A DNA stretch of 64,000 nt from Polynucleobacter sp. AP-Ainpum-60-G11 (GTDB taxonomy: Bacteria; Pseudomonadota; Gammaproteobacteria; Burkholderiales; Burkholderiaceae): NCBI RefSeq assembly GCF_018688375.1, contig NZ_CP061318.1, positions 1,302,001 through 1,366,000 on the forward strand, read 5' to 3'. Within the stretch, counting starts at the first letter, position 1. Each line of letters starts with the position of its first letter. A model generated the notes under the pieces. It saw only the letters and a program-made list of their open reading frames with translations. It was not told where the DNA came from and ran no database searches. The translations under genes were made by a program, and so were the position numbers. This document shows positions 2,469-4,725 of the stretch, in pieces.

Positions 2469-2545
2469 CGCGGGGTGGAGCAGTCTGGCAGCTCGTCGGG
2501 CTCATAACCCGAAGGTCGTAGGTTCAAATCCTGCCCCCGCAACCA
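2469..2545 (+). tRNA. Initiator tRNA-fMet (anticodon CAT)
   Basis: A 77-nt cloverleaf with encoded CCA. The anticodon CAT is at 2503-2505. Two initiator hallmarks are present: a C1-A72 mismatch at the end of the acceptor stem (5' CGCGGGG against 3' CCCCGCA) and three consecutive G-C pairs in the anticodon stem (GGG before and CCC after the loop). It is followed 13 nt later by a Rho-independent terminator. The 3' 45 nt are duplicated at 4681-4725 (see there). Confidence 0.97.
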
Positions 2546-2558
2546 GTATTACAGCTCT

Positions 2559-2587
2559 AAGCCCTTATTTTTAAGGGCTTTTTGCTT
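2559..2587 (+). terminator. Rho-independent terminator of tRNA-fMet
   Basis: Stem AAGCCCTTA / TAAGGGCTT with a TTTT loop, followed by a T-rich tract (TTTTTGCTTTT). It lies 13 nt after the tRNA 3' end. Confidence 0.85.
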
Positions 2588-2610
2588 TTATAGGTTTTAG
2601 TAAAACACAA

Positions 2611-2640
2611 AAACCATCAAACTATTTAAATTGATGGTTT
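2611..2640. terminator. Hairpin, possible terminator
   Basis: Perfect 10-bp inverted repeat AAACCATCAA / TTGATGGTTT with a 10-nt AT-rich loop. On the minus strand it is followed by a T-run, so it could insulate kup and the tRNA from leftward transcription. Read on the plus strand the tail is A-rich, so it would not terminate well in that direction. Confidence 0.4.
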
Positions 2641-2775
2641 TAAAAAACATCGGCTAGACGTTAAGAGTTCACCTTTTCGATAGAATCAATCTATATGTTT
2701 TTCACTTAATACGCCGCAGCCTCACTCTTGACCAATTCAAAGTTGAAAAACTCAGAGCAAACTAGATAAATTTTT

Positions 2776-4539
2776 ATGAGTTTTGAAATAGCAAAAAAGC
2801 ATTTCTTAGATGGGCTTAATCTCTTAGGCGCAGAGAGTTACGAAGAGGCTGAATTTCATTTTTTGGAATCACTCCACCTAATGCCTGATAGGATTTCAAC
2901 CCTGATCAATCTGTCCGCTGCTCAAATAAAACTTAAAAAATTCTCTGAAGCCAAAAATTACTCGGAGAAAGCACTCGAATTAGATAAAAACTGTGCCGAA
3001 GCATTTCTTAATTTAGGGATCATAAATAGAGAGCAGGGAAAATTTATTCACGCCTTAGAAATTTTTGAGATGGCAGCAAAGCTAAAGCCAGATTACCCTG
3101 AAGCAATCTCTAATAAGGGCATCGTCCTTCATGAACTCAAGCGATATGATGAAGCCTTAGCCTCGTATGACAAAGCAATTAGTTTTAAGTCTGATTACTG
3201 CGAAGCATGGAGTAATAGAGGCTCTACCTTTAGTGAGCTAAAGCGTTACGAAGAGGCGCTAGCCTCGTATGACAAAGCAATTAGTTTTAAGTCTGATTAC
3301 TACGAGGCATGGGCCAACAAGGGCATCGTCCTTCATGAACTCAAGCGATATGATGAAGCCTTAGCCTCGTATGACAAAGCAATTAGTTTTAAGTCTGATT
3401 ACTGCGAAGCATGGAGTAATAGAGGCTCTACCTTTAGTGAGCTAAAGCGTTACGAAGAGGCGCTAGCCTCGTATGACAAAGCAATTAGTTTTAAGTCTGA
3501 TTACTACGAGGCATGGGCCAACAAGGGCATCGTCCTTCATGAACTCAAGCGATATGATGAAGCCTTAGCCTCGTATGACAAGGCGATTAGTCTTAAGCCT
3601 GATCTATACGATGCTTTCTGGGGAAAAGCTTTGATTCAATTGGCACTTGGGAATTTTAAAGACGGGTTTAAAAACTATGAATATCGTTTAGAAAGAACAA
3701 GTGCCCATCCAAAACGCCACCAAGCATTTCCATTGCTCACAAATTTAAATCAAGCATCAGGAAAAAGAGTATTGGTATGGAGTGAGCAAGGTCACGGCGA
3801 TACAATTCAATTTAGTAGACTCATTAAAAATTTGAGCGATTTGAATATTGAGATTATTTTTGAGGTTCAGGCGGGACTTAAAACTCTACTTGAGCAGTCA
3901 ATAAAGCATGCGAAGGTCATAGGCGAAGGCGCCCCCTTTGGGCAAGTTGATTTTCAAATTCCACTAATGAGCTTACCCCTACTCCTTGAATTAGATATTA
4001 ATGGCATTCCGAGCGACCCATATCTTGTAGATTCAAAAAAGGATTCAATTGCCTGGAAAAAAAAGCTCAGTGCGGCAAATAATAAATTAAATATAGGAAT
4101 CGCTTGCTCAGGAAATGAACAGCACATCAATGATAAAAATCGCTCAATCGATTTAGAATTCTTTAAGCCAATTGCCGATCAAGCAAACTTATTTTTAATT
4201 CAAAAAGATTTGAGGAAAAAAGATCGGGATTTTTTAAGAACTCATCCAGAAATTAAATTTCTTGGTGAAGAAATCAAGTCCTTTAATGATTCAGCTTCAA
4301 TTATTCAAGAAATGGATCTAGTTATCACTGTTGATACATCCTTAGCTCATTTATCGGGCGCCCTAGGAAAGTCCACCCTAATCCTTCTTCCGTGGAATCC
4401 TGAATGGAGATGGCTTTTAGATAGGCAAGATAGTCCGTGGTATCCAACAGCTAAAATATTTAGGCAGCCGCACTCAGGTCGTTGGGAGTCTGTGATTGAA
4501 GATATTGCTCTTCGACTTAACTTAAATCATCCGTGCTAG
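2776..4539 (+). CDS. TPR protein with C-terminal glycosyltransferase-9-like domain
   Basis: 587 residues. Residues 1-290 are about eight 34-residue tetratricopeptide repeats, the central five nearly identical to one another (motif YDEALASYDKAI). Residues about 320-585 resemble the glycosyltransferase-like domain of the TPR/GT9 family. Its landmarks are WSEQGHGDTIQF, CSGNEQHINDKNRSID, VDTSLAHLSGALGK and a WNPEWRWLLDRQDSPWYP stretch. Relatives are thought to modify surface or secreted proteins or glycans; the substrate here is unknown. There is no signal peptide, so it should be cytoplasmic. The gene is AT-rich, lacks a convincing Shine-Dalgarno before ATG 2776, and sits alone between two copies of a tRNA-fMet 3' end. 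All of this suggests acquisition. Confidence 0.8.
   Translation: MSFEIAKKHFLDGLNLLGAESYEEAEFHFLESLHLMPDRISTLINLSAAQIKLKKFSEAKNYSEKALELDKNCAEAFLNLGIINREQGKFIHALEIFEMAAKLKPDYPEAISNKGIVLHELKRYDEALASYDKAISFKSDYCEAWSNRGSTFSELKRYEEALASYDKAISFKSDYYEAWANKGIVLHELKRYDEALASYDKAISFKSDYCEAWSNRGSTFSELKRYEEALASYDKAISFKSDYYEAWANKGIVLHELKRYDEALASYDKAISLKPDLYDAFWGKALIQLALGNFKDGFKNYEYRLERTSAHPKRHQAFPLLTNLNQASGKRVLVWSEQGHGDTIQFSRLIKNLSDLNIEIIFEVQAGLKTLLEQSIKHAKVIGEGAPFGQVDFQIPLMSLPLLLELDINGIPSDPYLVDSKKDSIAWKKKLSAANNKLNIGIACSGNEQHINDKNRSIDLEFFKPIADQANLFLIQKDLRKKDRDFLRTHPEIKFLGEEIKSFNDSASIIQEMDLVITVDTSLAHLSGALGKSTLILLPWNPEWRWLLDRQDSPWYPTAKIFRQPHSGRWESVIEDIALRLNLNHPC
3117..3581 (+). repeat. Two identical 204-bp tandem repeats plus a 57-bp partial copy
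   Basis: Units 3117-3320 and 3321-3524 read identically by eye. A third partial copy is identical from 3525 to 3581, then diverges. Each unit encodes two TPR motifs (68 residues), so gain or loss of units keeps the frame. Within a unit the two 102-bp halves also share a stretch of about 42 identical bases. Absence of even silent differences means recent duplication or ongoing homogenisation. Confidence 0.9.
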
Positions 4540-4680
4540 GAGGTGCTTGAATCAGCGCTAGTAATTACGCCTGATTTTAGAGCTTTTCAGTTTGATGGTG
4601 AGTTTGATGCTATTTTTACCACCGACCTTTAAGCCTCTATTTAGATGGCTTCCAGCATTCCGTCACTCGGGAATTACGCA

Positions 4681-4725
4681 CTCATAACCCGAAGGTCGTA
4701 GGTTCACATCCCGCCCCCGTAACCA
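4681..4725 (+). repeat. Displaced 3' fragment of tRNA-fMet (att-like direct repeat)
   Basis: 45 nt from the first base of the anticodon loop to CCA, matching 2501-2545 except for three substitutions (A to C in the T-loop region, T to C and C to T in the T/acceptor 3' arms). No matching 5' half lies upstream: the bases before it do not form D-arm or 5' acceptor sequence. It therefore cannot be a functional tRNA. Confidence 0.85.

Follow-up and report, generated by a model that had tools for sequence, protein, structure and literature searches.

A single AT-rich gene in a Polynucleobacter genome lies between the intact gene for the initiator tRNA and a second, partial copy of that tRNA, and the question raised by this locus is how the gene came to be seated there and what keeps it in place. 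We analyzed a stretch of 64,000 nucleotides (here called the window) from a complete 1.91-Mb Polynucleobacter genome (G000) in comparison with 185 other genomes. Our results lead us to favor, with a probability of roughly 0.75, the reading that a 2,180-bp segment of the window is an integrase-less remnant, similar to a cis-mobilizable element (CIME), of a type-B tyrosine-recombinase island in the sole tRNA-fMet gene, reduced to its two ends and a gene for a TPR protein and probably locked in.

Initiator tRNA gene and its displaced 3' copy

373 to 2313, minus strand: kup potassium transporter gene, left flank (open reading frame; Pfam K_trans, 606.7 bits)
2469 to 2545, plus strand: intact tRNA-fMet gene, attL side (ARAGORN; Rfam tRNA, 61.8 bits; sole full match in the genome)
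4681 to 4725, plus strand: displaced tRNA-fMet 3' fragment, attR side, with substitutions at 4707, 4712, and 4720

The tRNA-Met(CAT) at 2469 to 2545 has a C1×A72 mismatch and three G-C pairs in the anticodon stem, both of which mark initiator tRNAs, and it is the sole initiator tRNA of G000; used as a query against the whole genome, it found two places only, the intact gene and the fragment. The adjoining kup gene is 95% identical to that of P. hallstattensis (L003). A preliminary description of this DNA had reported a 45-nt direct repeat, identical at 42 of 45 positions and running from the anticodon-loop boundary to CCA, and sequence comparison bore this out: positions 2501 to 2545 and 4681 to 4725 match on the same strand and in register over 45 nt, beginning with the first anticodon-loop base and ending with CCA, with 2,180 bp from one repeat start to the other. 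Shuffling the downstream 10 kb 100 times gave a best ungapped match of 29/45. An intact tRNA gene with a same-strand 3' fragment downstream, the arrangement looked for in a tRNA-targeted island, is present. We considered the three changes in the fragment as derived from the other tRNA variant of the genus (the 96% type) and rejected this, the fragment matching that variant at 39/45 positions versus 42/45 for its own tRNA.

The element between the repeats and its ends

2546 to 2641, plus strand: left end, consisting of a replacement terminator and an arm-type region, with a stem-loop at 2559 to 2580 that forms a terminator-like site
2776 to 4539, plus strand: gene for a TPR protein of 587 aa with a C-terminal domain of about 280 aa that is weakly glycosyltransferase-9-like
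3115 to 3603, plus strand: tandem repeat of 204 bp (two TPR units), 2.4 copies, 98% matches
4574 to 4680, plus strand: right end, 107 nt, with an ungapped match to G154 and G126 that abuts their fragments
4726 to 4775, plus strand: displaced original tRNA terminator, its stem partly decayed, which aligns with DNA 3' of the intact tRNA in L015, L017, and L020 and is more diverged in L079
4894 to 5862, plus strand: gene for a tctC-type periplasmic binding protein, right flank (Pfam TctC, 211.4 bits); in six relatives its distance from the tRNA is below about 210 bp

The element (2546 to 4680) has a G+C content of 38.8%, versus 45.6% for the window, and this value, together with the open reading frame list and the protein scan, confirmed that a single AT-rich gene without an integrase lies between the tRNA copies. 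No open reading frame of at least 80 aa was found between the repeats besides 2776 to 4539, no integrase was among the four scanned proteins of the region, and a tblastn search of the 4540 to 4680 gap for integrase remains gave no convincing match (best E value, 0.036 over 14 residues); an integrase gene of its own, as a tRNA-targeted island would carry, is thus lacking from the window's element. Beyond the right flank, a hicB antitoxin and hicA toxin pair is located at 5938 to 6521 on the minus strand, adjoining comEC; hicB is present or absent among relatives.

Among the islands compared, only those of integrase type B2, represented by G126 and G154, have ends homologous to those of the window's element. 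The 96 nt of the left end are matched at 85/96 positions in G011, 76/96 in G154, and 74/96 in G126, directly after the respective tRNA in each case, although a tRNA followed by these initial 53 nt alone is also found in insertion-free genomes such as G083. The 107 nt of the right end are matched at 93 positions in G154 and 80 in G126, versus at most 48 in 12 other islands; matches of 23 to 35 nt at an E value of 9e-4 in G017 and G162 (two of at least five genomes matched) were taken as chance. In G011 (L177, G011:C1:1402000-1418000), the window-type left end with both arm repeats follows directly after the tRNA, with neither fragment nor right end, which amounts to a one-sided scar. Judged by sequence comparison, the insertion in the window is site specific.

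Uninterrupted sites and terminator exchange

Relatives with an uninterrupted site, as expected for a tRNA-targeted island, were found. An AACA-type terminator comes after the tRNA in L015, L017, L020, and L079, with tctC behind it within about 210 bp; in the window, the AACA-type terminator and tctC come after the fragment and not after the intact tRNA. The tRNA of the window is followed instead by a second terminator type, which also forms the start of the B2-type islands in G126 and G154. G083 and G035 likewise have tctC immediately behind the tRNA, here with the second terminator type; over kup, the tRNA, and the next 53 bases, G083 is 91% identical to the window. The second terminator occurs in these two genomes without an insertion, and terminators have thus been swapped repeatedly at the tRNA-fMet site; the insertion can still be placed by the gene order and the fragment, and the identity of the original terminator is less certain than the gene order because the window's first 53 nt are also found in uninserted G083. 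Together with the other cargo found between the same repeats in relatives (see below), these insertion-free sites support the earlier proposal that tRNA-fMet serves as an attachment site.

The kup gene adjoins tRNA-fMet in all compared loci long enough to include it. It occurs there in two versions, 57 to 61% versus about 67 to 98% identical to the window's, which suggests, at the level of sequence, that exchange has also taken place on the other side of the tRNA. Homologous exchange is evidently common at the site, as these two versions and the swapped terminators indicate, and one might on that ground consider that slippage or homologous exchange duplicated part of the tRNA, with no integrase involved; such a reading is contradicted by both ends, which match those of integrase-bearing islands and lie equally far from tRNA or fragment, and we give it hardly any weight.

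A genus-wide integration hot spot

The preliminary description had held that initiator tRNA genes are rarely seen as integration sites, which proved not to be so in this genus. tRNA-fMet was detected in 182 of 186 Polynucleobacter genomes, and a 3' fragment of 36 to 51 bases was found in at least 30 of the 186, the window's included; this hand-made count is a lower bound, as 63 genomes were searched again and, of the genomes with one tRNA match, only G119, G150, and G156 were in the second fragment search. The tRNA and element-end searches scored no more than four candidates in each genome, which makes their counts lower bounds too. The portions of the literature on tRNA-targeted integration that we consulted contained no report of tRNA-fMet as attB, which is not proof of absence. 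Where flanks were compared, the order was kup, tRNA, island, fragment, tctC and hicB (each in some loci), comEC, and tatD.

An integrase of family A or B, 410 to 475 aa long and encoded inside the island, accompanies the fragment in 26 of the 30 genomes (17 loci, 11 of family A and 6 of family B, plus G044, G045, G110, G068, and G154, plus G162, G112, and G103, plus G151, whose integrase was counted by coordinates); the four fragment genomes without one are G036, G057 (at a contig end), G014, and G000. The integrase gene starts some 110 to 230 bp from the fragment in most islands, the exceptions being G126 (1.8 kb from the fragment) and G055 (integrase adjoining the tRNA). In Pfam, the integrases of A1 and A3 match Phage_integrase and Arm-DNA-bind_3, and those of B1, B2, and B4 have matches below cutoffs only; B1, B2, and B3 match the PHROGs integrase profile phrog_1 (E values, 1.3e-21, 2.6e-28, and 4.7e-20), so that the B family is covered by a recognized integrase profile.

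As the preliminary description had suggested looking for, many relatives have different cargo flanked by the same repeats; with ten proteins scanned per set, it included type III and type I restriction enzymes, DUF3987/Toprim, AAA, and HIT-HNH proteins. G068 (L185/L186, G068:C1:556000-593000) has two tandem islands at tRNA-fMet, both of which have a fragment of their own and an A-family integrase. In G036 (L207, G036:C1:1299434-1299481), a 48-nt tRNA-fMet 3' fragment lies about 400 kb from the tRNA, and its surroundings (18 kb) showed no match to A or B integrases, kup, or comEC. Ten viral contigs contained the exact 45-nt core, in 12 stretches altogether, of which 5 lacked the 5' half of the tRNA. 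Two IMG/VR contigs of 64.6 kb (L196/L204) and 50.9 kb (L199/L205) have two exact copies of the 45-nt block each; prophages may therefore use the same site. The element's right end joined to the core, searched as a pattern in viral contigs, gave 0 exact matches. Across the genus, at least two integrase families use the single-copy, essential initiator tRNA as a landing site, and the locus offers a before-and-after series that comprises empty sites, complete and tandem islands, and remnants without an integrase.

Candidate arm sites

2614 to 2623, minus strand: candidate arm site 1, CCATCAAACT, exact; in the same place in G126 and G011, and with one mismatch in G154
2628 to 2637, plus strand: candidate arm site 2, degenerate, with two mismatches; forms an inverted pair with site 1, 14 bp apart, likewise in G126, G154, and G011
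4589 to 4598, plus strand: candidate arm site 3, AGTTTGATGG, at -92 from the fragment; exact in the window, G126, and G154
4601 to 4610, plus strand: candidate arm site 4, AGTTTGATGC, at -80 from the fragment; one mismatch

The motif AGTTTGATGG occurs in both ends of the elements in the window, G126, and G154, as a direct pair at -92/-80 on the right and an inverted pair 14 bp apart on the left. L157 (integrase type B3) has AGTTTAATGG at the same -92/-80 places, L158 has one clear and one weak copy there, and L149 and L150 (B1) have ACTTTGGTGC and AGTTTAGTGC at -92/-80 with an inverted pair on the left. Paired 10-bp repeats at -92/-80 that are alike at 8 to 10 of 10 positions are thus found in the window, G126, G154, L157, L149, and L150, the latter two with another motif; the B4 island has 5 of 10 alike at these places, and 11 A-type islands have nothing alike (0 to 3 of 10). 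An 11-mer common to the two ends of the window's element arises in 53 of 5,000 shuffles. Because of their position and their covariation with the integrase family, we infer that the paired repeats are arm-type integrase sites.

The probable parent island and the missing integrase

The B2-type islands in G126 (about 20 kb, with type I restriction genes) and G154 (at least 20 kb, on two contigs) share their ends, arm-type repeats, and insertion site with the window's element; they differ from it in having a 447-aa integrase, many genes, and fragments that match at 45/45 positions. Of the 186 genomes, 21 have a B2-type integrase (E values up to 1e-20) and 27 an A-type integrase (E values up to 1e-40), with no match to either family in G000 when A and B2 queries were run against the 186 genomes. 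G000 has seven Phage_integrase places, the nearest about 186 kb from the element.

These findings bear on the proposal, made in the preliminary description, of a mobilizable unit that uses an integrase elsewhere, which is favored by the retention of both ends with candidate arm sites and disfavored by the mutations in the fragment and by the failure to find either matching integrase family in G000. If the element had come in as a minimal cassette, with a B2-type integrase of a co-resident island acting on it in trans, this would fit the four candidate arm sites at the right spacing, the tight placement of the TPR gene between the end regions (gaps of 135 bp and 34 bp), and the existence of helper-type integrases in G154 and G126 (86% alike); two of the four arm sites are degenerate, however, and no second TPR cassette at tRNA-fMet was found in the 185 other genomes, and with the missing integrase and the mutated fragment we consider such an arrival unlikely. 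As neither matching integrase family was found in G000 and the fragment has acquired mutations, reduction of an island in place is the more likely reading, under which gene loss would have occurred there rather than before arrival.

The remnant would then have formed in the following way. A type-B tyrosine recombinase would have inserted an island at the anticodon-loop end of the sole tRNA-fMet. Comparison with relatives shows that the element's copy replaced the 3' part of the tRNA (restored at 2501 to 2545), so that the tRNA stayed intact, and that the original 3' part with its terminator was displaced to the far end. The integrase and most other genes were presumably lost later, leaving both ends and one TPR gene, and the displaced fragment, free of selection, would have gathered three changes. 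Excision at the anticodon-loop end would now yield a damaged sole initiator tRNA, which may hold the remnant in place.

The TPR gene

The 587-aa protein has six or more TPR units, and its C-terminal part scored 21.0 bits against Pfam Glyco_transf_9, below the cutoff of 22. The AlphaFold2 model of the whole protein has a mean pLDDT of 92, and the C-terminal part modeled alone has a pLDDT of 38.7, too low for further use. The best Foldseek matches were SPINDLY and O-GlcNAc transferase (TM-scores, 0.24 to 0.49; rmsd above 12 Å; mainly over the TPR part); both of these combine a TPR array with a GT-B catalytic part, and the low-scoring match of the window's protein to them is driven by the TPR. 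The C-terminal end is probably glycosyltransferase-like, and the protein, to judge from these weak similarities, probably acts on a surface glycan or protein; surface modification by it is plausible.

Metagenome relatives are 519 aa long, shorter by 68 residues, which equals one 204-bp unit. Presence of the same TPR gene in all relatives would speak against an insertion; in the other 185 genomes, no ortholog with an identity above 52% (over the C-terminal 298 aa) was found. Distant TPR paralogs occur in 92 of 186 genomes, and the C-terminal part had no confirmed match in viral contigs. The presence of paralogs in three further places of G000 (35 to 41% in the C-terminal part), together with the occurrence of scars such as the G011 left end without a fragment, leaves room for a TPR gene that recombined later into a scar holding only the two ends; none of these paralogs is close enough to have been the donor, and a mark of a second junction was not seen (with one genome per species), so that we hold this course of events to be very improbable.

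Fragment decay and a possible lock

In 21 of 21 integrase-bearing islands compared, the 45-base block of the fragment is identical to that of the genome's own tRNA, versus 42/45 in the window; the fragment of the integrase-less remnant in G014 has kept 36 bases with one mismatch. The draft genome G177 (L157), which is outside the 21, carries a B3 integrase next to a fragment that agrees with its own tRNA at only 39/45 positions (3 differences from the genus tRNA, 6/45 from its own), although its tRNA and fragment are on separate contigs and donor DNA or contamination is possible; G056 (L158) has a B3 integrase beside the same fragment. Because of G177, integrase presence and fragment identity are not perfectly linked.

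In standard numbering, assigned by hand, the three changes in the window are A58C, U63C, and C71U. T-loop A58 is a conserved tRNA base, and A58C removes it; U63C breaks a pair in the T stem, and C71U makes a G-U pair in the acceptor. In a chimeric tRNA with the fragment, the cloverleaf energy changes from -29.6 to -25.0 kcal/mol and the best fold is no longer a cloverleaf. With a crossover at the anticodon-loop end, which the extent of the block suggests, excision would put the three changes into the sole initiator tRNA and would probably be costly, and the remnant may therefore be locked in; the lock is not proven, because ARAGORN still calls the chimera a tRNA-Met. We also speculate, as a rather doubtful extension, that the displaced copy takes the tRNA hostage: a mutated copy would make excision lethal and the decayed attR would act as an active retention device, so that an incoming B2-type integrase that excised the cassette would kill or cripple the cell, which could serve as an abortive response against rival B2 elements. 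Our results suggest that decay of the displaced tRNA part, by making excision harmful, is a simple route to island permanence.

Comparison with known systems

A parallel in the genus is the G014 remnant (L156, G014:C1:1387300-1396000), which is also small (3.3 kb), has no integrase-family open reading frame, carries glycan-type cargo (FkbM methyltransferase and formyltransferase-like genes), and has a decayed fragment; it differs in its ends, for which no type-B arm repeats are reported. Anticodon-class islands make up 2,083 of the 3,919 islands in Islander, according to the passages cited here (PMC4383910), and the window's element resembles them in its regenerated tRNA, its displaced 3' fragment in the same orientation, and a block running from anticodon loop to CCA; it differs in having no integrase. 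Islander demands an integrase, so that its pipeline would skip the element, and remnants of this sort would go unreported by island finders with the same demand. CIMEs, as defined in the cited part of PMC5704250, have lost their integration and transfer genes and kept attL and attR. Here, there is one open reading frame only between the repeats, and end homology and repeats indicate, by comparison, that both att ends are kept; like a CIME, the element has lost its integrase, holds one cargo gene, and is seated where complete relatives insert, but its parent would be an integrase-bearing island that may or may not be an ICE or IME, and its attR is mutated. As an integrase-less CIME-like element it would belong to a known kind, to which the lock in a sole initiator tRNA would be the addition.
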